A stretch of 64,000 nucleotides of DNA, taken from Galerina marginata. Its lineage: Eukaryota > Basidiomycota > Agaricomycetes > Agaricales > Galerinaceae. The stretch spans positions 930,001 through 994,000 of the forward strand of contig JAECYW010000021.1 of assembly GCA_023014335.1 (NCBI GenBank), in the 5' to 3' direction. Positions within the stretch are counted from its first letter, which is position 1, and every line of letters starts with the position of its first letter. Position numbers and translations under genes: made by a program. The notes under the pieces are model-generated. The model had not been told where the DNA came from and did not search any database. It saw nothing but the letters and a program-made list of their open reading frames with translations. Below are positions 21,290-44,583 of the stretch, piece by piece.

Positions 21290-21301
21290 CATCAGCAAAC
21301 C
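21290..21301 (+). repeat. left terminal inverted repeat
   Basis: CATCAGCAAACC, exact reverse complement of 44572-44583. Complementarity stops at the neighbouring bases on the outer side (T on both sides) and becomes imperfect inward. Confidence 0.9.
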
Positions 21302-22043
21302 ATGGGTGAGCTCTACAGCTTCTGGTAGAACTACATAGCCCCACAGCCTCAGAGCGAGGGGTACTGACTTTACAGCTCCACGCCCCTCCCACATGGAGCT
21401 ACATAACAACAGGTGACAGCTATGTCGGGCTACGGAGAGCTGGGGGCAGCACATCTGAATTACGTCATGCTATCGTGAGCTACTGAAGACTCTGTAGAGT
21501 GCCCAAAGTAGTCTATAGCTTAATGCCTGAGCGCTGTAGCACTGAATAGATTCCAGTGCGTTCTTCAGAGTACTGCCTATATTGCAGTCAGGCTGTTGCA
21601 GAAAACATGTCTCCTGTGTAGGACAGCACAACTAGCTCCTTCATTTATGTAGTTAGCCCCTTTGCCTACACAGTCACTGAAAGCTGGGTCCTCTATATAT
21701 GCAGTTGCCTCCTAAATATTTACAGGTGTACACAGTTGGCTTATCCATGTATACAGCTGGCTCCTTCATGTATACAGTCCTCTCAGACCTCCTTAGTTTT
21801 ATGCCCAGCTTACGGTAGGGTATAAAGATTTGCACCATTAGTGATCCATTTATGGGCAAATTGCCAACCAGTAATATTATTTATTCAGCATACTAATTAA
21901 TAAATCCTCGTCCCAGAACAGAAGCGGCTGTGGGGACTGCCTAATGATTGATATGGGTAACCGCTGACTGCTGTAGGACTGTCTGAGTCATATATACATA
22001 CCCTGGAAGCCAATAAGAAGAGGCGGAGGGTGTCGCACAATAT
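21302..22043. repeat. left subterminal repeat region
   Basis: Gene-free. Short motifs related to agctacatagc recur in both orientations up to about 21550. Between about 21640 and 21790 a looser unit (tatacag-tggct-cttcatg) recurs several times. CACTA-type elements use such subterminal repeats as transposase binding sites; that function here is inferred. Confidence 0.55.
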
Positions 22044-25019
22044 TCAATCAAGGTCGATTGTGACCTCATGGTTGATCATGGGCTCTCCAGCAACCTGCAA
22101 CTGCCTGGTATGTTTAAGCTATTAAGTACCAAGCAAAGCAAAAGAGCAAAAGGAATAGACGTACATTCCCTCCTGTGCCCATTTTCGTCTGTTGACCAGG
22201 AGTTTCTGGGCGTGATATGCGTCAGCGTTGATGGACTCCATATGTTTGAGCAACGCGTTGACAGTAGATTGATATGCGGAGCCAGTGAATGCGATTTTCC
22301 CCGGCTTTCCACAGGAAAAGCCTTTGTACTCATGGATGCAATTTGTGATCTACATTGAATAATGAGTGTGCAATAGTAAATCGAAATCAACAGAAACTTA
22401 CGATTGTCATGACAAGGATCATGCAGAGTTCTGGGACTGCGTCCTTGAAAAGTTCAGGGAAATGAAAAGCCAGACAGTCGTCGCCGGTATAAAAGCATTC
22501 TAGACACAAGGCACGAATACAAGGATGAGCAAAATTATTGGTTCTTCCCTATAAAAGGCAGATGAGAAAAAGATAGATAGAAATAGGCTGAAAGTGAACG
22601 TGCGTTGTCATCTTTTCCTCCTTTTAGATATAAGGTGTTAGCTAAGAGCGTATGAGCATTGGCAATAATCTCCTTTTCTAACTGTGCTTGGTTATCAGTA
22701 GAAGGATCCAGTTCTTTGGAGTAGTGGCGGGGAACAGCAATGCGGCCAAAACCCTTCAATTTGCCACGGAAAGTACTGCCCTCTTCGAAGACCTACATCT
22801 AGTCAGTATGTTATTGTCCAAGAAGATTCAAACTTACGACCGTGGCCATATTGTTATTAAAGGCAAAGCCTGTAAAGGATTTATCAGAAATCAAATTAAT
22901 AGGTTGAAAAAGGATATAAATATATACCCGTTTCAAAGAGTAAACCTTCTTCTTGTCCTGCCGCAATTTGTTCTGTTAGAATCAACTTTGCTATCTGGAA
23001 ATCTGCCTCCTGCGTCTTGGTGGGAAAGGTATGCATGACCGCAACGTGCTTTTGATAGCAAATCTTGGACTTAACAAGGACAACTTGCCAGACGGAGCCG
23101 TAGAATTTCAGATGCGTTGGGTCTTTATCTCGGCTGATCCCGTCTTCCATTGACCTTGAGGTTTTTGTCGAGGCTGGTACCTCATCCTGGACTGGATCAA
23201 TTTCTGGATCATTTACACTTGCTTCTCAAATATCATTAGCGGCAGGAATAAATTCTAAGGCTTGTCAGAGCAAATACCTCGCATCTGTTCTTGGCGCTGG
23301 GAAGCATTAGCTAAGTGCTTTGGTTTTGGAGGTCTATTAGAGCGATTCTTCTTGTGGTGGGCCTGCAGGACGTCCTGATCCAAAGACTGAGGGGATTCAT
23401 AAGGACCTTCATCTACCTAAACAATTCTATTAGCCAGCAAAATCAAAAGCAGAGAGCGTAAACTGTTCACAGGTATATGTTCCTCAGGAGCATCAGGAGC
23501 GTCAGGAGCATCATCAATATCAGGCTGTTCGTCATTACCCCAATGGTTTGGATTATTGTTGTTATGTTCATGTTCATAAGGACTTAATGGCCGGGGAGCA
23601 TGAGGGGCATGGGGGGCATGGAGCGCGAGTTCTGCCTGACGCTCATCTTCTGAGGGGGATTGTTCATCAATCTCCAGATCTAGTATTCATGTGAGATTAA
23701 TTATTTTTATTTGAGAGAAAAGATAGATTAAGACGCTTACCATTATTATTACCATAGAATTGTTCCTGGTGATTGATCTCAGGTCCATCCATATCAATAT
23801 CCATAGAGCGCGATTTGTGACCATGGTAATCATCTGGACCGCCTTCTGGAAAATATTCTGCGTAAGCTTGGTGGTTAAGTGGGTGGGTTTGAGCAACATA
23901 TTTACCACTCTCTCTGCGTTCATCACCTTCACCACCTTCACTGCTCTCCTCATCACTGGACTTCTCACCTTCAGGCTCACCACTGCCATAACCATTCTCG
24001 TCATCGTCATCGTTCTCTTCCTCATCCTCATCACTCTGAACACCCTTGTCCTTGTCATTCCTATCGTCGACTTCCATGTCCTGTTGAATATCTTTGCCTG
24101 CCTTTGAGTAGGTATGAGGATTGCGATTTGACTGCAATGACTGCAACAAGGGTATTCTGTATTGTTATTAGAAACCCAGACACATTAGAAAAAGACGTGA
24201 AGAGACCTGATGTTGGGAACTCGGGCTTGGGATGGGTGTTCTGCTGGGGTCCTTTGTTATTATCAGCATTGGAGAAGCGGTAAGTTTTAAAAGAAAGCAA
24301 AGTACATTACGTGCTGGGAAGGCACTTCAGGTTCTAGAACTGAATTAATCTGCGGTTGAATTGTCTGTCGCAAATCATCAGTGATCAATCTGTTGGGAAT
24401 TTTAACTTTTGGCAACGGTGCACTGGGTTTTAAAGGAGGGTCTATTTTTTGGCAGTCAGGCGTATCAATTTGTCCCTAGAAGCATTGTAATATATCATCA
24501 AAAAAAATCAAAGAAAAAGATAGAAAAACTTACCGGTTTGCGACGCTTAGCTGGTTCACGAGGCGCCAATGGATTTTCTTCCATATTGGTTGGGGCATTG
24601 TCAAGGTCATCTCGGGGATGCTTCTTAGCATTTAGTTTCTGTTGTGATTTTTCCAGGCCAGCGCCCACAACATTTGCGGCAAGGGTGAGTTGGTGAAGGG
24701 CACCACCCTGGCCAGCGCTTGAACGAACAGGACACGTTCTGCCTAGATAAGAAAATGTATATAAATGATATAAAGGACAATAATAATGTAAAGCAGCACA
24801 CCTTCAGCTGGAGCGGTGGGGATAGTGCCGCTGGAGTTGGCTGGAAAAACAGAATTAATTGAATTCAAACAAAAACGTGAACCACTTGCCAATATTGGAC
24901 GGTACTTTTGATTTACTAGTCTTGTTTTTGTTGTTTCCGCTGGCTTTTGACTTGAGCGAAGGCGTTCCTTGGCCAGCTTCACCTGGATTTCCCTTCTTCT
25001 TGTTGCCGTTGTTAGTCAT
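22044..25019 (-). CDS. Transposon cargo protein, possible DUF6532 domain
   Basis: A multi-exon minus-strand gene starting MTNNGNKKKGNPGEAGQG (ATG at 25019) and ending EVTIDLD with a tga at 22044-22046. A basic Lys/Ser/Asn-rich head is followed by a proline-rich part, then a strongly acidic Asp/Glu/Ser/Gly stretch (about 23700-24150), an Asn/His/Pro-rich linker, and a folded C-terminal part: HLKFYGSVWQVVLVKS, HPCIRALCLECFYTGDD, FPELFKDAVPELCMIL, HEYKGFSCGKPGKIAFT. The last pattern recalls DUF6532, a basidiomycete domain of unknown function. The first intron appears to use a GC donor (gcaagt). I am confident of the gene, less of every exon edge and of the domain name. Confidence 0.6.
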
Positions 25020-25442
25020 GTCTTGACTGTGTGGGATATAGTTTGCTGAAGGAAATAAAAGAGCAAGGAGAGTAGACAAGTTAACAAAAAGGTAAGTCCA
25101 GGGGATGTTGAAGTAAAAGTCAACCAAGTTCCGTCCATTTTGGGAGCAGAAAATTTGAATATGTATGTTTGCCGGAGAGCCGTAAGTCCATTTTGGGTCG
25201 GGCCAGCCCCAAAAGCTCGGCCACGCCAAATAGTCAAATAAAAGCATCATCATGGACAAACATTTGGGAGGTAATGCACAGAGGTGAGACGTCTACTGAA
25301 ATTACAGTTACAAGAGAATAGAAAAATCACCTAGGCCATAAGGCAGAGAAGTAAAAAGAGAAGTAAAAATAAACGTAAAAGCTGGTGCTACATGAGAGCA
25401 CAGAAACTGCCTGGTAGCGCCGATGATAGGAGATGAATGCTG
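25020..25442. other. spacer between two cargo genes
   Basis: A-rich on the plus strand, with no exon I can support. The open frame continuing upstream of 25019 on the minus strand has no conserved look and is probably 5' UTR. Confidence 0.45.
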
Positions 25443-25910
25443 CTAGTCCAAAGTAATTGTGATTTTTTCTCCCTGGGGGAGAGTGATTATACGATGCGCT
25501 ACGTTTCTGTTAGTTTCCGAGTCAACTTCCAGCAAGAGCTTCAAAATACATACCCCCAATAACCTGCACAAAGAAATTGTCTTTCTTGTCCACAATCCTT
25601 GACGATGGTAGAATGAATCCACTTTGTTTAATTCCATGGCAAACAACGCCAAAGTTGAGTTCTGCTCGCAAGATGTCTTCATTTGCTCGATCAATCTTCA
25701 AACTGAGCCGTCGAAGCTTGACCAGCAGGTTCGCAAGTTTGTCCTGACAAACCGTTTCTTGTTCTGCAGCTTCCTGTAATAAGGCGCTGGCCTCCTCAGC
25801 TGAGTCCACCCGGGTTGTGTAGCGCTAGGTCAACAAAGTCAGCAAATAGCATTTCCCACTGTTTTGAAGACCAACGGGAGGCATCGGACCCAGAAGGGAA
25901 ACAGTAGAGC
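25443..25910 (-). CDS. Small coiled-coil cargo protein, ends uncertain
   Basis: At least two minus-strand exons. The upstream one reads LYCFPSGSDASRWSSKQWEM and FADFVDLALHN. After an acceptor ending cctag, the next reads VDSAEEASALLQEAAEQE, KLANLLVKLRRLSLKIDRAN and HGIKQSGFILPSSR, a helical, probably coiled-coil protein. A final segment (NVAHRIITLPQGEKITITLD, stop at 25443) is in another frame, so one more intron or a frameshift lies near 25535. The 5' end was not resolved. I do not recognise the family; similar proteins seem familiar from other agaricomycete transposon neighbourhoods. Confidence 0.45.
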
Positions 25911-26231
25911 CTGTTGAAGGGTATGGTGGCATAACTGATAATACTGCACAAACTCAGAAGACAAAGGAGACCAGTAGGGGGCTTGGCTCACCACAAAAGA
26001 TGGTACAAGTAACAAAGGGCAGCGTCCAGGAAGAAGTTAACTCGTTTGTTTTGCGTTTGTTGATCACAATCACAATATTAACATCTGGGAGTCACATGAT
26101 TGGAGAAATCCTATTGATTCTACCAGCTCCTAAATCCATGTCTAAAACAATGAATTATTCCTGTATATATTATAGCGATAAAACGGTAGGCAGAATTATT
26201 GTAATAAGAGAACTTGAAGAAAATTATATTT

Positions 26232-29200
26232 TTAAGCCATTCTTGCTCCTGGTTGAATATGTGATGTGGAACGCATATACATATTGTGGTCCCATCCATT
26301 TCGATCTTTAGCCCAACCTCTAGCTGCCTTGTCGGTATGAAAAACGAGAGAAGCTCTTCTGCCACGGTAGTGAAGATTCAGATGGCTAATGTCGGCGGAT
26401 TTAAAGATGACGACATCCCCTGTGTATAATTTCAATACGACACCAGGTTCAACCAAACATAGCTCCCCTCCTTCACAATCGGAAATTACCAAGACCAAAC
26501 AAATATCTTCATCACCCCAATCCCGATGAATCCGTGTACTAACATTAATGTTAAGTACAAATCCTGAGAAAGGAGAAACCGGCGATGTATCACAATTTGG
26601 CAGGACACTAACAAGGAACTCAAGCTTATCAAAGCTATCAGGAAGTAAGCATTTCACCTAGAAATACATTAGAAATGAATTAATAAGATTATAAACACTT
26701 ACCAGATGCTCAATCCATTCAAAAACTGGCCCGAAAGCTTCGATAAACATACGGTATTCATCAGAGTTGTCCTTAAGTTCTCGGCTTGACCTTGGAATAT
26801 TTTGAGAAGTGTTGACCCGACGCAAACCTTCTTTTTGCAAGGTAGAAGGATCTGCATCGAAAGGTGTGCCATCTCCCTTTATAAAATTATGTTAATGAAT
26901 TACAATATTTAAAACGGCATTTACTCACTCTTGTCGAGTACCGAAACCATACGGTAAAATGAGCAGACGGAAAGGAATTTGTTGACCCCTCTAGAGCAGT
27001 ATCAACGACCCTCAGGGTATTAGGGTAAATGACTTGGACTTTGGCCAGTAATGTATCTCGCAGTTCTTTAGGCATGTTTGCGCAGATTAAAGCTATGAGC
27101 TCTGCGTACTTGTTGTTTATTCTTATCATCTGACTAAATAATAAAGCATTCAGGTCAATAACAAACAAGTGAAAAGAGCGGCAAAAACAGCGTACCTATC
27201 AAGCCACTTACTATCGAAATATATATATTTCTGTGGGCTAGTTTTACGGCCTTTTGATAGCGATGAGGTCAACTTGAAATCATCATAAGCAACGTATATC
27301 CAAATAGCAGGCGCACAAACCTTTTTTTTGAAGTCTGCTAGGTTGTTGGGCTGGATAGCCTTCATCGCGTAAGATCGCTCTTCTTCTGTTACCTTCCATC
27401 TGTCTTCTCTGTCCGAACGGCTAAATTTGAGCCTCGTATTGTATTCCAGCTTGGGGTCAAAGTTGGTATCAACAGTAATAAGGGTGGGCAAAGTCATAGG
27501 AGAGTCCCAGTCCAGACGAGGTAAGAAACCTTGATTGCCAGCTGGACTAAATGGAAATCCAAATGACGAAGAGGCCGTCTGGCAAGAGTGACTCTCAGGA
27601 TGTAGCCCTGGTAAATAAGAACCAGAATTGCTGGATTCATTGGTAGGGTTGGCCCTTACCAGCACTCCTTCACTGTTAAGCAAAAGAGTGTCCAGAGAGT
27701 TGAGGGAATACGATGAGGATGTCACTGCTGTGGTACATTCTAGCCAGCTATGCCAATCACGACCTTTCATAAAATCGCTGAAAACAAAGGTAAGATAGAC
27801 AGCATTGGTACGTTTGAAATAAAACACTTACTTACTTGTACAGGTATATAGAGTCCAAAATCTCATCTGTCGCTACTAGATTTGTGCAATCGATGTCTGA
27901 CAGATATACGGACAATTGTGAGCCCTCTAATTGAGGTTGGTAGACCGTCTCCAGAAAACTAGTAGGGAAAAACATTCCGATATGGAGAGGGTACTGTTGG
28001 CGGAGGTAAGCCACAGCAGGAATGATCTCTTTTTTGATCAATACTCCTTGAGGAGAATCTAAACGAAAGATTAAAAACATAACTAGATAATACACCTAAC
28101 ATACCAGTAGGATATCGTATGAATTTGGCCAATTTGCCAACAGTATCACCTTTCAAATCTCGAACATGAGGTCTGATCCGAGCGCAGGCCATAAAAACCA
28201 GTAAATAAAAGGAACCTAAGAATTTGACCCATGAGCCTTCACCGCAGGTCAAGCAAGAGAAAAAGACGAACCAGAACCAACTAGCCTGCAAGCGTATATA
28301 CCATCTTTGACATATTGATTCAAAGTTTTTCGGCAGCGTTTGAGGTAAGGCTCAACAATATCCCAAACTTTATTCTGAGTAGTCTGGTGGTCCACCACAT
28401 ACCTAACAGAGATCGTTATCAGGCCCAGCTTTTGAAAATAAGAATTTGAGACTTACCTGTTCACCAGACATGCTAGCTTGATTGAGTTGAGCCAGTATTT
28501 TAGCTGAACCACAGCATCGGCCACTTCTAGTTCACAACAAATGCTGGCGGTGGATAGAATGTTGTTGAGGGTTGTACTGCCCATAATAGTAGTTGGAGGA
28601 ACAAGCAGAGCAGGAGTGATACTTTGTTGGGTCGGTGCGCTAAAATCAATTATCTGGTGCAGATGGCCATCGAGAGCAGTGTGTAACATAGGAGGGCAAA
28701 GCGTTTGCTGGGTTGGTGAGCTGGACTTGATAATCCACTGGATAAGTTGGTCAGGAGTAGTTGAGCTCTTCTCCCTGCCGGCAATAAAGCCAGGTAGGCA
28801 CTTCCTGGCCTGAGCACTGACGGCTAAAAGGAATTCTCGGATTGCTGTTTCAGGAGGGGGATCCTCAGCTAGTGGAAGGGAGCTGGCTGTTGGAAAAATA
28901 GGGTTGAACGACTGGGTAGACAAATGGTCTACTGCTCCGTAAGCCGCTGGGGCATGGGCTGGTTGATTTTCTTGCTCCTCCGCCTGGCCTTCTTGTTCAT
29001 TATGCCTTCCTCCTTCCAGGTTCCACTGGTTGCGACGTCGAGCTTCTTCCCGAGTACGATTTGCGGCTTGCTGGAGAAGCCGCGCAGCAGCACCACCTCG
29101 CGGGCAATTTGGATCCACAACAACAATGATTCCAGGGGGTGCCGGTGGGAGTCCTGGTGGTGGTGCCGGTGGGAGTTGTAGGCCGTTGTTGCCATTTTGA

Positions 29201-30473
29201 CCCCCAACCGGATTCCCGTTATTCAGCCAGATCTCTAATTCCAGAGAGCTGCCTCGAGATTGTTGCTCCAAGTCCTCTGACCCATTGTCATTATGCTCTG
29301 GCTCCAAATCCTCTGACCCGTTGTCGTTACGCTCTGGCTCCAAATCCTCTGACCTGTTGTCGTTGTGTTCAGGTTCCCAGTCCTCTGACCCATTGTCGTT
29401 GCGCTCTGGCTCCCAGTCCTCTGACCCATTGTCGTTACGCTCTGGCTCCCAGTCCTCCGAACCATCCTCACTATGTTCAGGCAAGAGAGGCAACCGATGA
29501 CCATTAATTACAGGCAATGGGGTCAAAGGTGACGGAGAGGAGAAAGGCGATGGCATAGAAGGTTGTGGGGTTGCAGGCCAAGACATCTCATTGTCAATGT
29601 CTATTCCAACTAATGGAGAATACATTTCTTCATCGTTCCTTCTGATTAATGGAGAATGCGGGGAGGATGATGGGTTTTGTAAAGGGACTGCGGTCAGAAA
29701 TGGGGAAGCCTCTGCCTCTGGCGTGGATTCGGGCAGCATTTCTTGATCAATGTCTTGCCTGGGTGATGTTGTCAATGGTGGCGATGGGGAGAAAGGCATC
29801 AAAAAATGCAATGGTTGAAGGGATTGCGGTGTTGGAGTCTGTGGGGTGAAAGGCCTCGAGAATTCATCCTCAAAATCAGGCGACGAAGGCCTAAATGCCG
29901 ACATGGGCAAAAAGGGCTGACATGGAGGCGGCAACATTTCGAGGTCGTCAGATCCAGCTGTATGTGAAGACAGAGGAGGCCAAACAGGCAGCAGAGCCAT
30001 GGGGGCAAGGGCAAAGGGTGAGGCAAATGAACTTAAAGGGCGGGAAGGAGACGGCGTTGGGGAGGGCGACAGCAAGCCAGAGCAATTGTTGCCATTCCGG
30101 GTGCCTATTATCCAGCTTGGATCAACCCCTAAGTCAAGGTGAGATCCAGCATTACTTCCTGAGGCTGCTCGAAGGTCGGGAGTCCCAGCTGGTGACTGGC
30201 TAAGGGGATAGTAGTCCTAAAGGAATGGAATTAGAATCAATAGCCAAGAAACAGAAGGGGACACACCAGGGGAGCCCCAAGAGCTTTGAAGACCTGAACC
30301 GACACCCCTGATTCCGGCACCAAAGACAATGAGCTCCCAGAGAGGTAAGGGTGAAGCTTAAACGCCAAAAGCAGGCGTTCTTGACTAACTGCGGGGTCGG
30401 CCGTGGGGTCCAGCAAGGCATGGAACAGCGTGGAGAGCTCGGACTTTGAGAGCACAAGGGATTCCGAATCCAT
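26232..30473 (-). CDS. Tet-like (TET/JBP) 2OG-Fe(II) oxygenase, transposon-borne
   Basis: Nine exons (30267-30473, 28457-30216, 28302-28402, 28105-28215, 27836-28058, 27196-27777, 26929-27133, 26703-26876, 26232-26657) join in phase to 1262 residues. Residues 70-600 are Pro/Ser-rich with a 12-residue tandem repeat. The C-terminal domain (about 1120-1240) has a double-stranded beta-helix signature: HRD at 1165-1167 as the iron-binding HxD, GGEL, GDVVIF, then distal His near 1213 in DISHLNLHYRGRRASLVFHTD with an Arg for 2-oxoglutarate, and finally KDRNGW. This pattern matches the fungal TET/JBP proteins known to travel with KDZ and Plavaka transposons, which are predicted to oxidise 5-methylcytosine or related bases. 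The start was set by an in-frame stop just upstream. All metal ligands appear present. Confidence 0.82.
29266..29480 (-). repeat. 36-bp tandem repeat, six units, in the oxygenase gene
   Basis: Six consecutive units encode variants of NGSEDWEPERND, giving an acidic repeat at about residues 280-350 of the oxygenase. Units differ by single substitutions (W/L, R/H, G/R). It will be prone to copy-number change. Confidence 0.85.
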
Positions 30474-32602
30474 AGACAGTAACCGAAGGGCCGAAGGCGG
30501 GTTGGACTTAGGAATTACGACGGGTTCGCGAGTCACGCCACCGTGAATGACAAGTCACATGTCCATATGATGTTTCCACCCGCACAAGCGCGTCGCGTCT
30601 CGTTGATTCACTCTTCCTCCTTCGGGCAAATGATGGCAAAAAGGCCAGCTTTTTGCCATCACTCCCACCTCGTTGACCCTTTGCCTAGACGCCTACTTCC
30701 CGCAGTGTCTTAGCCGACTGATCAACGCTCTCGACTGCGGTAGGACGACGACATCGCGAACACTCACAACGACGGCGCGCGGATCCGAGTCCCAGCCTTC
30801 TTCCCCGCCCCAGGTCATCCTCGTCTTCGGAGGTAAGTGGTGACCCATGTCCTCGTCATTTTGGCCCGCTGACAACCTGCCCAGACAGCCCACCCAGCAA
30901 ACCTGCTCCAACTGCTCCCACCGCTCCCATCCCGCGTCTCTCACTCTCCCTGACGGACGTCACTGGATCTCCTGCCGGTGTTTTTGCTGCTGCCGTGGCT
31001 ACGTCGGTGTCACCATCTACCTGCGGAGGGAGTGCCGCTAATGCTTCGCCTTGGTAGACGGCACCTACTCCCCTGGTGTCTGTCTATCTTTACGCCTACG
31101 GCCGCGGGTCGTGGTTTTCCTACACCCTCTGCTTCGACTACGCCCGCACCTCGCCCATCGATATCGGCGTCTACATCGACATCGAAGGCAAAACCTTCTC
31201 CCATTCCAACCCGTCCGAATCCTTGCTCTTCTACTACCCGTGCCAGTCCTTCCACCTCTCTTCCACATCCACACCCATTTCCACTTCTAGGCCCACATCG
31301 CCTATTAGCCGTGGTTCGTTGGTTGTGTAAGCCCACACCCGCGGTCTGGTACGTTCCGTCTACCCAAAGCACATTCGCCTCGCACTGACCTTATCGCCGA
31401 CGTATAGGTGCCTTGACATTTGTCCCTGCCTACGTATGTGGTATCCTCGTTGTTTATCTTCACTTGCTCACTTGCTAACCTCGTTTATTAACCTTGGTCG
31501 CAGTTTCAACGTGGATCTATGACGAGCCCACGATCAAGTAAGTTTAAATGACCTCAAAGTGCCTATCAGCAACCCTGACCCTCTCTTCCTCCTTTCCCAG
31601 CATCTACCACGAAGACGGCGCCGGCCAGGCTGGGAGCTCTCAGGTAACTCCTTGTCCGTGTAACCTTCCAACTCTCATGCTGATATCGTGTTCGTTCGTA
31701 GGAAAGCCGGCCTTCAAAAGACCAACAACGCTACTGATCTGAGTAGATCATCATCGCCTGCAAATGACGACGAGAGTGAATACGGCGGACTGATACGCCA
31801 TGGGTTCACAAAATCATCGCGGACGGCGTTTATCCAGGCGACGGTGCTCTTCAGGGTTGAGCTAACAGAGGCGAGGTTCCGGCTGGCGGGCCAGGTAAGT
31901 CGTACAAATTACGGTAGACGTATAATGCGACTTACCAAGTTCGTTTGCAGCCCTATTATGTACACGCATCCCTGCAATTGAGGACGAATTCAACGCGAGT
32001 TGAAGTTCATGCCGACGGAGGATGGAGGCGGATACGAAGCCCTAGGACTTGGTAAGTCGCACGATTCACAGGAAACAAATTAACTGACTTACCAACCTTC
32101 ATGGCAGCTCTGTTATTCGACCCAACTTCACCTTCCAGCCCCACCCAAACCGTCCAATCCATCGAGACGGCCAGAAGCAACTACGAGCACTGCGATGTGC
32201 GATGGTTCTCAGTCGCAGTTGCGGGGGGCGGCATGGAGGCTACGATGTCGATGGGTGGCATGTCCTGGGACTCGGTAAGTGGTGGATATTGTGATAGAGG
32301 TCTGGAGAACTTATGAAGGCTTGTTGACAGCCTTGATATACAAGCCCATCAACCTGGTCATAGTGCTTGTGTGTCGGCGACGGCGTTGAAGAGTGGATGT
32401 GGAAGGCAAGGCAATTTGCGGAGCTGGACGGAGAAAGGTAAGCACGAGCTGCGCAAATGAGCCGACGACGTACTAACCTTCAAACCTCCGTCGTATTGGC
32501 AGCTTCGTTATGAAACCGCCTAATCCGCTGATGAACTGTCTTGCGAGGTGCATGTGCGTCGGGAGCCGGGTTGGTTGTGAACACGGGATTTGCGAAGCTG
32601 GT
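30474..32602 (+). other. Captured host-like exons, gene of origin not recognised
   Basis: GC content and codon texture resemble host genes rather than the AT-rich cargo on either side. Exon-like blocks with good donors and acceptors lie on the plus strand. They include a Ser/Thr/Pro-rich segment at about 30890-31330, a 26-bp exon near 31410, KAGLQKTNNATDLSRSSS to RVELTEARFRLAGQ at 31700-31890, then PYYVHASLQLRTNSTRVEVH, and further blocks at 32107-32275 and 32331-32440. Stops and frame changes break a continuous product. The last block is fused directly to the HSP70 fragment. I cannot name the parent gene or genes. Confidence 0.45.
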
Positions 32603-34107: not shown

Positions 34108-34389
34108 GAAGGTAAGCCCGAGCTGTATGAATGATAAGTAGGATGAAATACTGACCTTCTGGAACTTCAGACCTTGTAGCATGCTCGAGCTATGAATCAC
34201 GAATGGGAACAACGTCAGTAAGTATTCTCACTGAACTGACCTGCACCTCCAGTTTAATCCAAGCTCTACAGATTGTCAGTAATGTCCGGGACGTGTTCGG
34301 AAGGATTTGACTTGCGGATTATCTTTCCATCACTGTAAGTTTCTTATTTCAACGAAATGAGTACACAAGATTACTAACTAGTTATGTGC

Positions 34390-36330
34390 CTCAAAGCTTC
34401 AAGTCTACGTACACGGGCGGCATCAACCCGGAGACGCTTCCGCCTGCCGCCGCTGCCGCCTTTCTTCAAGCAACCAGCGGACGCACGACGACGTCGGCTA
34501 ATGTTATATCACCTTCTTTCAATGGATTACGCATGTGACGACCTACGTACGCCTGCTGTTACAGACATACGGGTGCCTGCACCTGTATCTGCCCAGCCAA
34601 CCAATGCAATCCACGACCCCACAGGTATCCGAACATGCCAACCAGCTCAGGCAGCGAGACCAACAGCACATGACGCTGTACAAGGAATACCTCAACCGTT
34701 TGCCCTCCTCACCTCCTGAGGCGCAACCTTCGTATGGATTACAATCTTCGTCGGCTGTCATGCTCAGCTCACCATTATCCAGCTCGCTGGGCCCGCCAGC
34801 CGCACGGCCCCGACCTGGGTCATTGATCCTCACCAGTCCATCGTCTAATGATGGCCAGGCGAACCTGAGTGTCATCTGTGTGTTTGCGGGCAAGAACCTG
34901 CAGATGCAGGCGACGTTCAAGATGGTCCTCCTCAACCCCTCAACCCCTCCACAACCGCGTCTGACCTCGTCTACCAGGCCATCCAGCGTTTCCGGCTTCC
35001 GACCGTGGAGGACAAGAGCCAATACTACCTCACTGTCAAGCAGGTGGAGGGTGGAAGCTCCTCGGTCTTGCAGCCCAATGAGAACCCGCTGGTCGTGTTT
35101 GATACCCTAGTGATGGAGATGATGGAGCTGCCCAAGGTGAAACGAAGCAGTGTCGGCAGCATCAGCTTGGTGTCGAGTAATTTATCGATGCACCCTGCGA
35201 CCAAGAAACTGTCGATGAACGATTTCACGGACAATTCGGCGGTCAAGTTTTATCTGAACAGGCGAGGCGATGGCTTGAGTCTGGACGGCAGCAGCGAGAA
35301 CGGGCACGAAAGGGATGACACGTTGATTGCAGATACGTCATACGCAGAGTCGGCGGAGATGGCGGGGGCAGCGAATGCCAATGCCTTGGCAAATCGCAAT
35401 TCCTCTCCGTATCAACTGCTGGCGCCAACGTCACGCCCGAGCGTTTCAGCTCGCCCTCTGTGCGGTTTGCCTCGCAGCTCATCATTTACGCCGAGGACCT
35501 GCTAGATGACATGCAGTTCCACCCCCAGACGGAGGCGATCGTGTTCAAGAACACGCTTCCGGACCTGCGTAAACCTATCGTGGTATTGCCCAATCTGAGG
35601 CGGAAGATCTTCATGTTCCCGAAGAATGTGACAGTAGCTGAGGTGACTGAGATCAGCCTGGAAAGGTTTGGCATACAGGATGGGGGTTATTGATGGGGGG
35701 GATGAGGTGGAGGATAAGATGATGAAGAGGAGGAGTGGGGTACGAGTAAGATACGGGCTGATGGTCAGCATTGATGGGCATGGTATGTATTTGATCTCTT
35801 TTTTGGTGGTGCGGTGATTGGTTTACTCATTTTTTATGATTTTGCAGAAAGGGAACTGCCACCGTCGAGCAAGATTTGTCGACGCTTTCCCAAGACTGCC
35901 ACAATACAGAGGACCTGATAGGCAGCCAGCAATTAACAAGTGCCGTTCGCTTGACTTGTCTCATCTTTTAGGTACACAGGAGGATATCCGCTTGGACGAC
36001 CCTGTATTTGTCCTCCGTCGCGCCATGTCCTACAGAAACTCGACTTCCAGGAAACACTTCTCAGCTCCCTTGGATGAAATTGCGCTGCAGCACCTGCACC
36101 GCCAGTCAAGCTTGAGCTTCAATTCAGACCCTCAGAGTCCCGTGGATGAGCATAGCAGCGCCATTGGCAACAAGCTCAAGCAACCGTCCCAGCAGGAGAT
36201 CATTGCTGCCCAGCGCGCTGCTACCCGTGCGACGCAAAGGGCGACGTTCAAGACCATCCTGCTCAACCCCTCCATGACCATGTCTGACTTGGCGATGACT
36301 GTGAATAGTCGATGGCCTCTGTATGTTCTT
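34390..36330 (+). pseudogene. Captured Ras-association-domain gene, frameshifted
   Basis: Reassembled across frames, the sequence reads as a conserved protein. A helical stretch (EHANQLRQRDQQHMTLYKEY) leads into an RA-like domain (ATFKMVLLNPST, then SDLVYQAIQRFRLPTVED, YYLTVKQVEGG, ending VKFYLNRRG). A downstream part follows (SVRFASQLIIYAEDLLDDMQ, KPIVVLPNLRRKIFMFPKNV, DPVFVLRRAMSYRNST). RA domains bind Ras-type GTPases. At least four frameshifts break it: an 8-bp tandem duplication at 34933-34948, and single-base-scale changes near 35421, 35685 and 35873. Its end (36241-36290) falls back onto a second partial copy of the RA start. It is a pseudogene; I did not identify the parent. Confidence 0.65.
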
Positions 36331-37837
36331 CATTTCCCTCTGCGCCTGCCGTCCTTCTCCCTAACTCCTGCCCCTCATAGTCTCCCTCTTCAACAAGCCC
36401 GTGCTCTCTGATGAAGAAGATGCCTCGGCAGCAGCGACTGGAATAGTGGAGATCGCTGCCCTCATGTTGACTGGATGTCTATGGCCTGGCAAGTTTCCCT
36501 TTGCACCACCGAGCCCTGCCCCATCTCTAATCATTCCTATGGCAGCCTTTCTCCTTGGCCCTATTCCCTTCTGCCACCTCTTGGGCCGTGGAACAAGGTG
36601 ATAAGGATGGTGGTGGCACCTTTTGAAAATAGCTGAAACCGCTGTCCAGGTATTGACTGAACTTCCATTGCTTGGTGTGTCACTGTTCACGCCTCGCGAC
36701 TGTCACCTCACTAACAAATGCCCAAGCAACCCTTTTGCTAAGCGCTATTTATCTTCCTCACCCCTGGGGATGCCTGATGAGATGGTAACCGAGATGACGG
36801 CGGCAGCTCCAACTGCTGGAAATAGTTGTGGCCACTCTCCTGGGTTGATAGCAAGCGCAGCGTCTTCCCAGCGGTGCAGGTCCTTTCAGACAGTCGTGGC
36901 ACCCCTTCAATTAACCACAACCCACCCAATATTTTTTATTGTCTAGTAAAACAAGCATTTGCTGCTATATACATTCTATCTAGTATTTGGAAGAGAAAAG
37001 GGACTGGTAGATGCCACCCAAAGTAATGGCCAACAAACTAAGTTTTGTCTCACACGAAGAAGATTGGTATGGGACTAAAGTCCCAGTGAAAAATGACCGC
37101 TCATTGGACACAGGCCTGGGGAACTTCGGAATTCACATTTGCAGATTATTTGCCGCTTCTCGAAGAATACTTTCCAAGTCGCCTTTCACTAGGCTTCAGT
37201 CTGAGCGGAGATGAAATTGGTTTAAGGTTCGCTTGCTACACCTAAACGAAAACCTCATCATTCATCCATTCGTGTTTTGTTTGTTCTCTCCTCAGGCCTT
37301 CCCTTAGGTCCAACTTAACATTGTGGAGCACGTTGAATTTGACAAGCACTGTCGGTGTGGCACTTCCTGAGACTGAAACCTGATATTTCTGTCAAGTCGT
37401 TTGCATTTGTTCATACGTCTCTTGATTTATTCCAAAGGTTTGTCACCCTCTGCTGAAAGGTTCAGCCCTTGACTGACCGTCTAATTTAGTGGCAGTTGCC
37501 TTACAATCCACAAGGATTGACACCAGCTCACTCCGTAGTACTGAGCTTCCTGAGCTTCTTATGAGGACTCTCCGGAACAGCCAGTAGCCTAGTAGAAGGT
37601 AAGCATCGTCTGTGGCCAGCAATGTAGCACACTAACTGAAGGTGCCAATCAAGTTCTGGCCACTGTTTGTCAACTGGTCATCAACTGGTCATCAAGTGGC
37701 TTATCGGCGCCTCCACATATAGAGTGATGGACACTAGCTCATTGGGCCCAATTCAAACACTGTACAACAGCCTTCGGCCTACTTTATAAGTCGGCTGATT
37801 TCCCAGCTTGTCAGAATACCCCTTCCTTCACGCAAAC
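36331..37837. other. end of captured region and spacer before the nuclease-like gene
   Basis: To about 36950 the sequence still has host-like composition, but no frame I can name. From 36950 it turns AT-rich like the rest of the element. A small tandem repeat of the 11-mer tcaactggtca lies at about 37668-37690. The promoter of the 37838 gene should lie at the right end; tttataag occurs near 37782. Confidence 0.45.
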
Positions 37838-39324
37838 ATGTTTGAGTCCTCAACAGTGACTTCCTACGGTTCCTCTGTCCGTCATATCGTCCGAAGTTCT
37901 GTCTCACCTTCCTTGGCTGCGGCACATTCACCCACATTTTTCTCGGCCGGTAACACAGCCAGGCAACGGGGCCATTCCCCAAAGGTCCCCACGGCGGAAG
38001 CCCGTTTGTCCCCTAGGCCTATCGTAACCAAAGTCGAGACTGAAGACAGTAAGTTTGTGTCAGCTATTTGAATTCTGTGACGGTTGAATAACCAAAATCT
38101 AGCCTCCCTACTTTCTAATATCAAGAGCTTCATTGAACAATGCAATCCAGAGACGCTTCGGTTAAAGATTAACTCCGATAAGCTTAAGCATATTGAAGAA
38201 CTAGCGGAAGCAGGCAAACTCCCTGGGTGGCAGAATTTACGGCAAGTCACTTTGCTGCTCTACGGTTCTTGATTCTTGGATTGAGTAAATCTTAGATTCG
38301 ATTTCAATGGCGAAACTTTAATAATCCGTCGGCCAACCAATGTGCACGAGGGCTTCTCAGAAATCATCTCAGCGGTTATTAAGGAACTCTGGGCACCCCA
38401 CGTTACCCTGGGTGGTCCGGGACCAAATAAAATCACGCAGGCAGGGACAGCAGATCTTAAATTCAAAAATGGTCACCGCAAATGCCCCGACGCAGCGTTT
38501 TATGACGATCAAGCCCCGCCAGGGAGCTTTCCCACTATTGTTTGGGAAATCGGTTACTCTGAAAGCGACAAGGAACTGGCGGTTGATGCTGTCGAATACA
38601 TCGGCAAGTCGGGGGGAAAAATCCGGATGGGCTCCACGATAAATTTAGAAACCACCACTGAGGAAGTTCCTCCTTTAAAGGGAGTTACATTGGGTTACAC
38701 TTTCAAGAAGCTTCTGGCTATTGTTTGTTCCAAATATCGTCTCATGTCTGTTGAAAGAAATTCCAGCGATGTAACTCAAAACACTGAACGTGATGTTGCT
38801 CACGCCGTCCGATCACCCTCTTCTGATTCCCACCTAACCCCCGACACATATTTCTTTGTGACTGACCGGCCGAGGAACCAGACAAGGGCAGCAACAGCTG
38901 CCTCCTCACCAGATGACACGCATCAAATTCACCGCAAGATGACTATCAAGCGGATAGAACAGCACCCTGTAAGAATCAATATCTCCTTATACATATTTCT
39001 AGATTTTGATCTGGCTTGTAGATCATGCTCAACGGCGAGGCCTGCCCAGAGGGTTCTTTTAACATAACATTTGACGAACTATTTCTTCAACTACCTGATG
39101 GGCATTCAAAGGAGGAGGCCGCCATTGTTATCCCGTATTCTATCTTCATCCGTGTTTTTACAGAAATGCTTGCTATCGACAACGGCACGGCTGAGCGTAA
39201 CGCCAGAGATTATACTGGTAAACGAAGTTATGAGGACATGGTTGGAGAGGATTCACGTACCAATGATCAGATCGAATGGGATGAGGAGGACGCAGAGTTG
39301 ATGAAGCGCTTTAGAACTACTTGA
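37838..39324 (+). CDS. PD-(D/E)XK nuclease-like cargo protein
   Basis: Four exons (37838-38048, 38103-38241, 38296-38968, 39022-39324) give 441 residues. After a Ser-rich head and a helical part (SLLSNIKSFIEQCNPETL) comes a Uma2-like restriction-endonuclease-fold core: CPDAAFYDD, then a hydrophobic strand FPTIVWEIGYSES, then AVDAVEYIGKSGGKIRM. Asp in CPDA and Glu in WEIG fit the PD and (D/E) positions; the usual Lys two residues after Glu is not obvious, so activity is uncertain. The tail is acidic (IEWDEEDAELMKR). The second intron (38242-38295) has a GC donor (gcaagt). Genes of this sort are scattered in fungal genomes near transposons; a role in transposition or defence is only a guess. 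Confidence 0.65.
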
Positions 39325-39551
39325 TTTCCAGTGCAGTGTACCATATCTATAAAACCATAATCTTAATCGATTGCTAGTTTCAGACATCCCTCAGAATTTA
39401 CTAGTCCTCCTTTTATTGTTCACACTTCAGTCTTGATTTCAACTGGAACGCAGATTAGATGTTTCAAGTTGGCGCTCAAGTAGAACATTGTTTTACTCGG
39501 AACATAGTATTTCCAAACTAAAATGTTGTCCAAATAATGTATGACTACGAT

Positions 39552-40712
39552 TCAGGAAGATTGGACCAACTCTAAGCCAGACAACAAGACAAATTTCTTC
39601 CGACCGCTATCATCTACATTGCAGCTTCGATTTCCATCTATATCCTCCTTGTTTGCGACCTCTCTGTCATTTTCACTTTCGCTCTCATATTCACCTTCTG
39701 AGTCACTGGCATTCTCCCATGCACTGTCGTATGGGTCAATATCTTCCATGGGCATGGAAGTAAAACCAGTAGGAGTCCCTCTCGTCAAGTATTGAATTCG
39801 TCCAATTACAGTTGAGGTCCAAAGTTGACGACTTTGGTGCGCTCCTCTGTCGCCCAGCTGCTGGAACTGACCTGACACAGGTTGGAAGAGTGAACAACCT
39901 TCCCAAATCGTCCCGATGTTATGGAAAAGGTAAACCCTCTGAATCAAGGGCATGCTCTCTGTCCACCGGTTCAGGACAAAGTCAGCGTTGCGTTGGGGCA
40001 AATCAAAAACCCTAACATTTGTTTTCACGACGAAAACTTCGAGAGAGCTGCATAACTCAAGCATCGCTTCCCATAAGCCATCTTCCCAAGGGCCACAGTC
40101 ATTAGTTGCCTGAAGGGAAGATTTAGTATAATTAAGAGAAAGACAACTTGAAAAAGTACGTACCTTGATGGGATTAGATAGGTATTTGATACGAAAAACC
40201 TTAAGTTTTGATAAGGCAGTATCCCAGCGTATTGTATCAACGCAGAAGTCAGGACGGTGGCCACAGTGAACATTCAGATGGGTGACGGCTGAGAAACCTA
40301 ATGCTTGACCCAGTTGATAGGATAATGTTCTTGTTGAAGGCATCTTAATCTCTAGAAAGACTAGATTCCTGAGGGCAGGCCAACTGCTGTTCCGAAAGTA
40401 ATGTTGAGAAACTAAACAGGAGTCCGTGTACTTCTGAATATCGATATCATTTGCTAAGACTGCGCTTGTTGGGTTCATGTCTAGGCCTTGAATATCCCTC
40501 AGGCAGGCAAGAGAACGTTGCTCAAACAAGTATTGAGCTTTGGTCTCTGACTGGAGTAACTTCATGTAAAACATGATTTCTTCTCGCATTTCCCGGGAAA
40601 CTACAATTATAGAGTCAAGTTAGCCACCAGAGGACAACAAAAGAAGACAGAAAAGTTGATGCTTACATTCAACTGGAAAGGTTTTGATTTCAGAGACTGG
40701 TGGTATGTTCAT
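39552..40712 (-). CDS. F-box/LRR-like cargo protein
   Basis: Three exons (40667-40712, 40164-40600, 39552-40109) give 346 residues; the middle intron (40110-40163) has a gtacgt donor and cccttcag acceptor. Leucine-rich segments (WPALRNLVFLEIKMPSTRTL, VTHLNVHCGH, LSKLKVFRIKYL, MLELCSSLEVFVVKTNVRVF) give the beta-alpha rhythm of agaricomycete F-box/LRR proteins. A canonical F-box is not visible at the short N-terminus, so it may be truncated. The C-terminus is acidic (DSEGEYESESENDREV). It is transcribed toward the nuclease-like gene and away from the transposase, with which it shares a 148-bp promoter gap. Whether it works with an SCF ligase is unknown. Confidence 0.65.
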
Positions 40713-40860
40713 TTTAGAAACTAGGCAGAAAATACGAAGAGAGAAGTTGAAAGCTATAAATAGTTAAAGTCGTCACTTTCTTTATTTGTGAGCAAACTAA
40801 GAGCGTCGATTTATCTTCTCACGTTGAAATTCTAAACTTAAACTTGAACTTAATCCTGCT

Positions 40861-43800
40861 ATGACGGTTTATTGCCCTCGCTGTGGCAAGAAGTTCAAGG
40901 ATCTTGTTCGGGTACAAAATCACTTAAATCAGCCAATCTCTAGCTGTCTTATCCACTTTAATGAACTTCTGGAAATCAATACAGCTCTTCAGGAACAGCT
41001 TAGACCTGGGGTGGAACCTCAACTTCCGACGACACTTAACTTAGACGCAGAGGATCCAGCTTCTAATAATGGGTGTCATGACGAGGCCATACTACCTGAA
41101 TTTGAGCCTACAGACATGGATGTTGACTTGGACTTGGAACCTGTCGGCGTACCACCAATACGAACAGCATGCACGGCTTATCCTAACATTCCATCTACTC
41201 ACTATTTCGAAGATCGCTATCCAAATTCTTCTCAAACTTACGGTCCTGGCCCAACATTTATGGACCTTTTCCATCAAAACACATTCTTTGAAGAACGGAA
41301 GACTAATGTATATTACCCATTTGCCTCAAAAGACGAATGGGAACTTGCTTCTTTTCTGCTACGGTCAAACTTAAGTGTGGCATCCATGGACATTTTCCTC
41401 AAGTTAGAGCTTGTAAGTCCATACATTTGTCTTCACAACTACTTCTACACAATTGATAGATACAGAACCTTGGCCTATCTTTCCGAAGCGCTAAAGACCT
41501 CAGAAACCGAGCTGAAATGCTTCCCGCTGGCCCAGCCTGGATGTCAAGGCCATTGGCGACTGAAGTTCCTACCAAGAAGCAGCTCTATCTCTTCTATCGT
41601 GATCCTATTAAATGTCTCGAATCTCTCTTGCGCAATCCTCTTTTGCAAGGTTCCATAAAATTTGGCCCTTTTAGACTGTTTGAATCAGCAGCTAGGACTA
41701 TGAGAGTCTATACAGAGTGGCTTTCAGGAGAAGCTGCTTGGTCTATGCAGGTACATTTACTATATCCTTCACGTGTATATTTTAAGGTGACGTGATTTCC
41801 AGGAGAAATTGCCAGAGGGTGCTACGCTGCTAGGCACAGTTTTGTCTTCAGACAAAACAAATATCTCAGCAAAAACAGGAAACCGAATGGCACATCCTCT
41901 TTTAATCAGCCTTGCCAACATTGTTATGGATACTCGTAACAAATCATCCAACCATTTATTTTTGCTGTTGGCATTATTGCCTATCCCAACTTTTATCCAC
42001 CACAATAAGAAAGTACAGGGCGTTCTTGCTTCACGTCTTTTTCACGCTAGTCTGGATATTATCCTCAAGCCCCTCAAGACAGCGGCAGAGATTGGGGTCA
42101 TGATGACAGATCCTCTTGGCTGGCGTCGATTTTGTTTCCCACCATTAGCTGCCTATATTGTTGATACACCAGAATCTGCTCTGATAGCTGGTGTTGGATC
42201 AAAGACTTCATCCGTTACAATGGCAAACTATAGACAACTGGGCGACAACTTTCGTCATGAACCCCGAACAGCGTCCACCACTATTGCGCAACTCCTAGTC
42301 CTAGAATCAAAAATCAATCCATGGAGCCTGGAATCCTACATGATCAAATCTAAGGAGACATTTCATTTGAATGGTGTTCATCGTCCATTTTGGAGAGACT
42401 ACCCTCTTTCCGATCCATCTGTATTTCTTACTCCTGAGCCTCTTCATCATTGGCACAGGCAATTTTGGGACCATGACATCAAATGGTGTATTCAAGCACT
42501 TGGTGGGCAAGGACAGGAAATTGATTTTCGATTTTCAGTTCTTCATCCACATACAGGCTTTCGACACTTCAGAGAAGGAATATCAAAATTGAAACAGGTT
42601 ACTGGGCGAGAGCATCGTGATGTTCAGAGATACATTGTGTCTGTTTTGTCTCAAGGTGTTCCCTCTCTTTTTCTAGCGGCCATCCGTTCGCTCATCGATT
42701 TCCGCTACTTGGCTCAAGCAAAGGTCATCAACGAAGCTACTTGCAATCAAATCCAAAAAGCTCTTCAAGATTTCCACACATACAAACAAGCCATAATCGA
42801 TGCTGGGGCACGTCGAGGAAAGAAAAATGCTATCGATACTTGGTATATACCCAAGCTGGAGTTCCTGCAAAGCGTTGTTCCCAATATTCGGTTAAATGGA
42901 GTTGCAATCCAATGGTCTGCCGATACCACTGAACATGCACACATTGAAGTCGTTAAAGACCCTGTCAAATCTGTCAACAACCAGAACTATGAACCCCAGA
43001 TTTGTCGTTACCTTGACCGACTGGACAAGCTACGAGATTTTGATCTGGCTACAGCCATGCACAATTCCAAACTGGACTTTCGAGGTGACAGTGTTATTTC
43101 TGATCCAGATATCTTTCTTGATGAACTTGGAGAAGAAAGCTCTCTCCGCGTCTCCACCACTGTTGATCTTCTTTCCAATGTTGACTTTGTATCACCCCTC
43201 ATTGGCACTACACATCGTCTAGTTGATTATTTCCAGATTGCCTCTCAACTCAAACTTGGCCGAATTTCAAATGCCCCGCAACCTTACAGGACAGTCCAGT
43301 CTTCATTAAACTCGGCATTTCATTTGATTCGTGATCCTAGCTATAAGCGTATGCTTGTTGATGACGCAGCAACATTGTTTGACCTTCAAGATCTTCGCCC
43401 CGCCTTAGGAGACTACATCCGACAAACCCAGCAGCCTAAGACAGGCAACTCTTCTGTTATGGTCATTGGAGGCCGGCGGTTATCGGAAAACACATGTTCA
43501 CTTCCTTTCCTCCACCTGGAAATTTGGAATCGCCTCAGAATTCAAACAAGAGCGTATCACACCCCTCATGATATTTTGGCTGCACACACCGTCAATGCCT
43601 ACCCACCATCTGCTGAGTGGCCGCTTGGCCACTATGACTCTGTTATCGTGAATGTTGATCCTACTGAAAATTGGCCAAGAAGTGGTCTTAAAGGTATTTA
43701 CTGCTGCATACAGACATATGAAATATTGTACTAAGTGATAAACCATCTAGGCCATGTGGTTGTTAATGTCCGAATGGTGTTTCGCATTGTTCCAGGTCAA

Positions 43801-44142
43801 ACTGCTGCAATGCCAGCTATCCAAGATCAGTTTTTGGCCTATGTTCAGCGTTTTGATATTGTTCCTCAGGTTAACCAAGCCATATCCGGTTCAAGGACTG
43901 CAAGAGGAGCATATCCAGAGCCATATTCCTCACTATATATTCTGAAGAAAGCGAAGAGGACAAATAAAAGTATTATTGGTGACATTATTCCTCTTCATCA
44001 TATCCGGGCTTTGGTGGATGTTGCTCCTCGTCTTGGAGAGACTGCCAATAGAATGCTAACTCCTCAAAATAGCACAACATATAGTTCTGAGTATTCATTG
44101 AATAAGTACTTTGATAAGGAGTTGTTCTGGGCGTTAAGTTAA
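40861..44142 (+). CDS. Plavaka transposase
   Basis: Four exons (40861-41412, 41460-41750, 41803-43693, 43751-44142) give 1041 residues. The N-terminal zinc finger CPRCGKKFKDLVRVQNHLNQ is the usual Plavaka start. The catalytic region contains the family's best-conserved segments: GATLLGTVLSSDKTNIS, TGNRMAHPLLISLANI, WRRFCFPPLAAYIVDTPE, EPLHHWHRQFWDHDIKWCI, ISKLKQVTGREHRDVQRYIV, IDTWYIPKLEFLQSVVPNIR and QWSADTTEHAHIEVVKDP. Conserved acidic residues in SSDKT and the FWDHD region are candidates for metal binding. No frameshift or stop is present, so the protein may be active. It would cut at the terminal repeats described at 21290 and 44572. Confidence 0.93.
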
Positions 44143-44571
44143 ACAAGTGTAGTTCATTGTCAATATATTCATTATTCTCAGTTTTCAGCATGGAGACCTA
44201 AATAATAGCTAACAAACCAAATTCCCAAGTGATGGTCAGTTGATGCTACTAAACGCTACTGAAAAAATAACAACCTGTCAGCCCTTGGTAGGAAATAAAG
44301 CCTCCCCATAGGCTCTGGTAGTAACCGCTGTAAGCTACTAAACGCTATAGAAAAAATAGAATCCTGTTAGCTCTCTGTAGGAAATAGTCTTCCCCATAGG
44401 CCATTATAGTAACCACTGTAGGCTCTGTAGTGCTGTTGGGCATGAACTCAGAGCTATGTAGCTCTGTGGAGGGCTAGGGGGGGCTTCGGTGGCTAGCTGA
44501 GTGAAGTGGGTTACTATAGCGATCTTTGACATCAAAGGGAAATGCTGTGCCTGTCTACGTGTGAAAATCTG
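44143..44571. repeat. right subterminal repeat region
   Basis: Gene-free. A unit of about 95 bp is roughly duplicated at 44246-44341 and 44342-44424 (ctactaaacgct, gaaaaaata, cctgt-agc, ggaaata, cccataggc, agtaacc-ctgta). Motifs such as gagctatgtagctc match the agctacatagc motif near the left end. These are plausible transposase-binding repeats. Confidence 0.6.
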
Positions 44572-44583
44572 GGTTTGCTGATG
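44572..44583 (-). repeat. right terminal inverted repeat
   Basis: GGTTTGCTGATG, exact reverse complement of 21290-21301, followed by TT matching the TT before the left end. Confidence 0.9.

Follow-up and report, generated by a model that had tools for sequence, protein, structure and literature searches.

Plavaka transposons are defined by the PF18759 transposase domain (PMC8290104) and include the PlavakaB type, with CATCA..TGATG ends and target-site duplications of 2 or 3 bp (Kojima 2025, PMC12730594). TET-carrying (TET+) PlavakaB elements with these ends and 2-3 bp duplications have been described, among others in Agaricus bisporus and Gymnopus confluens (PMC12730594). Here we describe a 23,294-bp element of Galerina marginata that shares with them the Plavaka transposase, the ends, an internal TET/JBP-like gene and an Agaricales host, and whose general kind is thus already known from that study. 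It lies in a stretch of 64,000 nucleotides (the window; C14:930001-994000 in a 69.3-Mb assembly of 43 contigs, here numbered with a C; positions without a contig are those of the window).

Related features are known from other transposons. Kyakuja/Zisupton elements with AG-type, CcTET-like domains are likewise Agaricomycete DNA transposons with a TET/JBP domain bearing an HxD motif, as presented in PMC12730594, but they belong to another transposase group, and an AG-type domain of the G. marginata genome matches CcTET, whereas the TET of the element lacks the Asp that PMC12730594 calls essential for 5-methylcytosine (5mC) in CcTET. Plant Pack-TYPE transposons also hold pieces of host genes between their ends, but are non-autonomous as described in PMC8903248, whereas the element keeps an open transposase in all four of its copies. 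The gene-capturing Helitrons of Pleurotus are, like the element, fungal transposons with captured genes (PMC4289320). The element differs from them in having inverted ends and a target duplication. Helitrons are not known to have either.

We conclude that the element is very probably an autonomous, recently active PlavakaB-type DNA transposon with a core module, captured host pieces and, as we propose, a TET-like gene that may act against silencing. Relative to the published accounts as far as they are cited here, the new parts are apparently a TET lineage that fits neither published Agaricomycete type, a DUF6532 partner and a cargo zone; a full-text search of PMC12730594 found no mention of DUF6532, and we found in it no mention of captured HSP70 or RA-domain pieces or of empty sites in the same genome. 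The element may show how such transposons gather host DNA while resisting silencing.

Borders, copies and insertion of the element

The element, its ends and the host gene that it interrupts are located as follows.

21290..44583, + strand: complete element (23,294 bp), found in the assembly in four full-length copies including this one
21288..21289: left target-site duplication, TT
44584..44585: right target-site duplication, TT
21290..21301, + strand: left terminal inverted repeat CATCAGCAAACC, exact
44572..44583, − strand: right terminal inverted repeat (CATCAGCAAACC, 12 bp), exact
20560..21289, + strand: interrupted tandem host gene (copy 2), left part, from the empty-site alignment
44586..45033, + strand: interrupted host gene (copy 2), start of the right part, from the empty-site alignment

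The initial annotation had proposed exact 12-bp inverted ends, matching TT flanks and an empty site predicted from a paralogous tandem copy (copy 3), and all three were recovered. With up to one mismatch allowed, the 12-bp end has three matches in the window, as compared with a mean of 0.43 in shuffled sequences, none of 100 of which reached three. When the flanks were joined with a single TT, the joint aligned without a gap to the paralogue at 47024-47027 (84% over 603 columns) and also to a second paralogue near 18578 (83% over 579 columns). The reading frame of the rejoined host gene, followed by eye, continues across the joint, so that the insertion lies within coding sequence; no Pfam family matched either of the two pieces of this gene that were tested. 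The element is thus real, with borders exact to the base.

The exact 12-mer CATCAGCAAACC occurs 24 times in the genome, and eight of these occurrences are both ends of four full-length copies: the window copy, C8:1167728-1191075 (minus strand), C31:129174-160578 and C31:176265-199575. The ends therefore recur as a boundary, as the initial annotation had asked of the assembly. Of the 16 other exact sites, 15 were compared (C43:2686013 left out) and none had element sequence at E ≤ 1e-5, though at one exact site, C9:174964, 21 terminal bases are in common with the element. The last 200 bp of the element occur four times in the genome; full-length copies with altered ends could have escaped detection. 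All four copies have 5′-CATCA..TGATG-3′ ends, and each is flanked by a 2-bp target-site duplication (TT, AA, TC and TA in the orientation of the element). They differ pairwise by 9 to 48 changes per ∼23.3 kb (0.039-0.206%; 99.79-99.96% identity over ungapped columns), with 65 variable sites, 57 of them singletons, and their 2-kb flanks do not match one another.

Direct evidence of insertion came from the 3′ flank of the C31:176265 copy, which recurs at three other C31 sites (223596, 242448 and 274582). This flank belongs to a repeat of at least 500 bp that is 100% identical at the three further sites and in which one element copy is inserted. The joined flanks with a single TA matched all three sites with zero mismatches, whereas the reversed control had no match. 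Thus, these perfect empty sites are direct evidence of a clean insertion with duplication of TA. The element inserts as a whole, with exact ends and a 2-bp duplication of the target, and the four copies keep the entire sequence including the cargo. The two C31 copies, which lie 15.7 kb apart on one contig, are the most similar pair in sequence, and this similarity suggests a local hop. Near-identity, unrelated flanks, separate duplications and perfect empty sites together bear out the recent movement that had been proposed from the window; the added suggestion that the element might still be mobile goes further than near-identity and an open transposase can establish. The four copies, exact ends and empty sites make movement directly testable.

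The copies also carry some changes of their own. The C31:129174-160578 copy contains an 8,089-bp insert at element position ∼10,880; this insert has identical direct ends of 425 bp and a duplication of 5 bp (GGCCA), and is an insertion of the long terminal repeat type. The window copy lacks, at 34606 in the RA-domain piece, 17 bp that are present in the other three. Just inside the right end lies an 89-bp repeat in two copies (44245-44424); a search of the element for subterminal repeats gave no clear motif.

Core genes and the sister family

Three genes form the part of the element that it shares with a sister family.

40861..44142, + strand: Plavaka transposase, exons 40861-41412, 41466-41750, 41803-43693 and 43751-44142, 1039 aa, PF18759 and PF20722 (DUF6830)
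22044..25932, − strand: DUF6532 gene (core), rough exon model, domain in the 3′ part, PF20149 (E 6.9e-19, 68.9 bits, cut-off 24)
26232..30473, − strand: core gene for a TET/JBP-like 2-oxoglutarate/Fe(II) (2OG-Fe(II)) dioxygenase of ∼1,250 aa, in about nine exons, with the catalytic domain encoded at its 3′ end

The Plavaka identity and uninterrupted transposase claimed initially both hold. PF18759 matches the largest transposase exon with E 1.1e-66 and scores 65.8 and 225.8 bits on two exon frames (cut-off 26.3). The four-exon model is open in all four copies, only three of the 57 singletons fall within its exons, and conserved blocks run through its alignment with 10 homologues and the sister transposase. 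The closest named homologues, among the best 120 of 645, include those of the mushrooms Flammula alnicola (64%), Pholiota molesta (59%) and Gymnopilus dilepis (59%), as would be expected of an Agaricales host. We class the element as PlavakaB-type by its ends and target duplication only.

The sister family forms five units of 18.77-18.79 kb at C23, bounded by CATCAGTAAACCC and CATCAGTAACCCC, ends of the type seen in the element; our comparison rests on the last unit (18,781 bp). In translated comparison the two elements are collinear, with the DUF6532 gene and the TET-like gene in the left arm and the transposase at the right. Most of the transposase is 67-74% identical between the two, with 37% in the first 190 residues, and the catalytic part of TET is 70% identical across 206 residues. 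In two Gymnopilus species, the TET region and DUF6532 are fused in one predicted protein (P0001, P0003), with the TET motif at residues 646 and 846, ahead of DUF6532, which is the gene order in the element. Eleven of the 18 TET matches in the genome accompany a Plavaka transposase match. Ten of these TETs lie at most 15 kb from the transposase (three of the four copies, the five C23 units, C9:548976 and C5:1945581), and in the copy with the 8,089-bp insert the distance is 23 kb. Because TET and DUF6532 are kept in the sister family and joined in the two Gymnopilus proteins, we regard the predicted DUF6532 gene, TET-like gene and transposase as a conserved core and not as random cargo. The initial annotation had counted the Tet-like oxygenase and a possible DUF6532 as cargo beyond a transposase-only unit. 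Both domains were found, and extra genes and host pieces are indeed present, but TET and DUF6532 belong to the core. Their occurrence as a set makes DUF6532 testable as a transposon helper.

The TET domain itself appears to belong to a separate lineage. PF12851 matches the last TET exon with E 2.3e-6 and 27.4 bits, and the frame is open in three of the four copies. The motif is HRD, of the HxD form, in the element, the sister and the C9 locus, and HxD is present in 14 of 15 TET homologues (the fifteenth lacks the region). In contrast, the Plavaka TETs treated in PMC12730594 are placed there in the PE type, whose hallmark is HxE. The same source describes Asp337 of CcTET as essential for 5mC. 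A D stands 11 positions after the motif H in CcTET and in three AG-type domains of the host genome, whereas the element has V at this position by offset and C by the profile alignment. An AG-type domain of the host genome matches CcTET with E 4.4e-32, and the Plavaka-type and AG-type profiles align weakly (probability 53%, P 1.4e-4), with the HRD, the distal H and the following R in register. No Pucciniomycete-named sequence occurred among the TET homologues found, several of which are unnamed. By the stated hallmarks, the predicted TET lineage is neither PE nor AG.

Several observations bear on these genes and their relatives. The alignment makes one additional intron in the TET-like gene likely, and a 36-bp repeat of ∼5.6 units lies inside this gene (29265-29465), with one extra 36-bp stretch in the C8 copy. 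A TET domain apparently of the same lineage at C29:155077-155394 has no Plavaka transposase match within ∼140 kb. At C23:2778843-2875474 the five sister copies stand head to tail, both ends present in each, with spacers of ∼682 bp as read from the last. Because GC precedes the first copy, TA stands on both sides of the last and the spacer starts with GC, the array fits two insertions ∼682 bp apart followed by unequal crossing-over. The 2,241-bp element at C10:485400-487640, with sister-type ends, a TG duplication and no long frame, is a non-autonomous relative.

Cargo zone and CpG loss

Between the TET-like gene and the transposase lies a zone of mixed origin.

30500..40860, no strand: cargo zone, a mosaic whose pieces have relatives at other genomic loci, mostly unshared with the sister
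31331..31719, + strand: interrupted sequence, left piece, 73.5% to C23:4064874-4065262
36293..36659, + strand: interrupted sequence, right piece, 76.6% to C23:4066030-4066392
31980..34438, + strand: two stretches (31980-32521 and 34091-34438) related to the TET+ Plavaka locus at C9 and separated by the HSP70 piece
32603..34094, + strand: captured HSP70 gene piece, apparent intron, 97.2% to C41:552574-554069, N-terminal part missing
34554..36244, + strand: captured piece of an RA-domain gene, 90% to C6:409726-411419 and C13:126163-127866, frame broken by indels
37727..39324, + strand: open gene, weakly Uma2/PD-(D/E)XK-like, ∼458 codons
39552..40712, − strand: open gene without a Pfam match (earlier F-box-like), ∼364 codons, 83% to C13:780379-781614

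The HSP70 and RA-domain pieces, which substantiate the captured host exons of the initial annotation, interrupt older sequence and sit between the halves of the one related to C23:4064874-4066392. The HSP70 piece retains an apparent intron, so it would have been copied as DNA. The other two cargo genes fared less well: the PD-(D/E)XK-like gene has a sub-threshold Uma2 match (14.1 bits, cut-off 27), but a fuller model matched no Pfam family at E ≤ 0.01, and the F-box identity of the gene at 39552-40712 is unsupported, there being no match at E ≤ 0.1. At C8:884606 and C17:135167, relatives of the PD-(D/E)XK-like gene are found ∼3 kb away from other Plavaka transposases, while those at C1, C8:970912 and C34 have no Plavaka transposase match within 35 kb. 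The middle of the sister, of which 4,627 bases were searched, matches scattered genome loci (best 92% over 630 bp).

Changes among the copies are concentrated at CpG. Of the 57 singletons, 35 are C>T or G>A, and 26 of these 35 are at CpG where 17% would be expected (p 1.5e-13). The RA-domain piece has 61 C>T or G>A changes specific to the element, and 37 of them affect CpG, where 26% would be expected (p 1.2e-8); on the host branches the figure is 11 of 33 (Fisher p 0.017 for the excess in the element). Because C-to-T changes concentrate at CpG, the bias suggests that the element is methylated. The ratio of observed to expected CpG rises from 0.59-0.61 in the core through 0.79 in the RA-domain piece to 1.04 in the HSP70 piece, in keeping with the capture order that identity suggests; the remainder of the window has 0.95. 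Such differing CpG loss, strongest in the core and absent from the HSP70 piece, could be used to time the capture of genes by methylated transposons.

Proposed mechanism and alternative explanations

In the mechanism that we propose, the transposase would cut at the CATCA..TGATG ends and paste the element, as its family suggests, and host pieces would be brought into the middle zone when repair switches templates. The TET-like enzyme may oxidise methylated bases on the element, possibly together with the DUF6532 protein, and this oxidation could weaken silencing enough for transposition.

A number of observations weigh against this reading. All gene models come from a simple custom script and not from a trained predictor. 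The TET score is below the Pfam cut-off of 34.9, a sequence search of solved structures with the TET returned only weak ribosomal-protein matches and a profile search none at E ≤ 1, and two AlphaFold predictions of the domain were poor (mean predicted local distance difference test, pLDDT, 40.1 and 45.5); because of these three results, activity on 5mC is only a guess. One of the four copies has a premature stop, of the CpG-transition kind, near the TET C-terminus, and the TET gene fails to keep the copies free of CpG decay. The gene at 39552-40712, at first regarded as captured from the host, may itself be transposon-borne, because observed/expected CpG at its nearest locus, C13:780379, is 0.57. 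As to the transposase, PMC12730594 gives C(2)C and H(3-4)H between the second D and the last E as features of the Plavaka/CMCT clade. With D and E as assigned by ourselves, H(4)H is present (residues 467 and 529) and no C-x2-C was seen between the putative D (DTPE, 400) and E (TEHAH, 655); only four of 34 homologues having both anchor motifs have C-x2-C there.

We considered the possibility that the copies arose by segmental duplication or mis-assembly instead of transposition, as might be suspected from the two copies lying so close on C31 and from the tandem array of the sister family. This is highly improbable, however, given that the four flanks are mutually unmatched, that each copy has its own 2-bp duplication and that perfect empty sites exist; moreover, the single 2-kb C8 flank that was searched had no second full match. 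It is also possible that the element is a passenger with a dead transposase, mobilised in trans by a related Plavaka, since the C10 element indicates that sister-type ends can be moved without a transposase of their own and the genome has many Plavaka transposase matches (124, counted exon by exon). Such dependence seems quite unlikely, with the frame open in every copy, so few singletons in its exons and its blocks conserved in 10 homologues and the sister. We retain a self-mobilising transposon as the preferred reading.

The changes at CpG might also reflect hypermutation resembling repeat-induced point mutation (RIP) and not decay of methylated cytosine. TCG holds 11 of the 26 CpG changes and 28% of CpG sites, a further point against our reading, and TCG hypermutation has been reported in Pucciniomycotina, according to PMC12730594. 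With all four CpG contexts affected and the changes few (57 singletons over four copies), we consider RIP-like hypermutation unlikely, and decay of methylated cytosine the better explanation. A somewhat stronger alternative, if still a doubtful one, concerns the captured pieces: HSP70 and RA may have been taken from the genes now resident, which are their nearest matches in the assembly (97.2% and 90%), and then have diverged without any foreign or lost donor. The HSP70 piece differs from the nearest host gene by 23 synonymous and five nonsynonymous changes in 360 codons, whereas 36.5 nonsynonymous changes would be expected if all divergence had followed capture on a neutral element branch (P(≤5) 9e-11). 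The RA-domain piece differs from C6 by 90 synonymous and 43 nonsynonymous changes, more synonymous than neutral decay would give, in a frame that possibly contains a short intron. The same pattern would result if the captured HSP70 piece were under purifying selection. Because the HSP70 differences are almost only synonymous, the donor would, unless the piece is under selection, already have differed from the resident gene, whether it was another species, the allele of another strain or a paralogue since lost. The HSP70 donor was thus probably another lineage or a lost paralogue. A more elaborate account, in which a self-mobile, gene-accumulating Plavaka, with nested captures and with an undescribed TET lineage and DUF6532 as its conserved anti-silencing module, arrived recently from another species, bringing a piece of the donor's HSP70, is tentative and on balance unlikely.

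With no Plavaka transposase match near them, two ∼590-bp HSP70 pieces at C6:1807529-1808112 and C6:1868737-1869320 are 94% identical to the cargo HSP70 piece and lie in opposite orientation, 61 kb apart.

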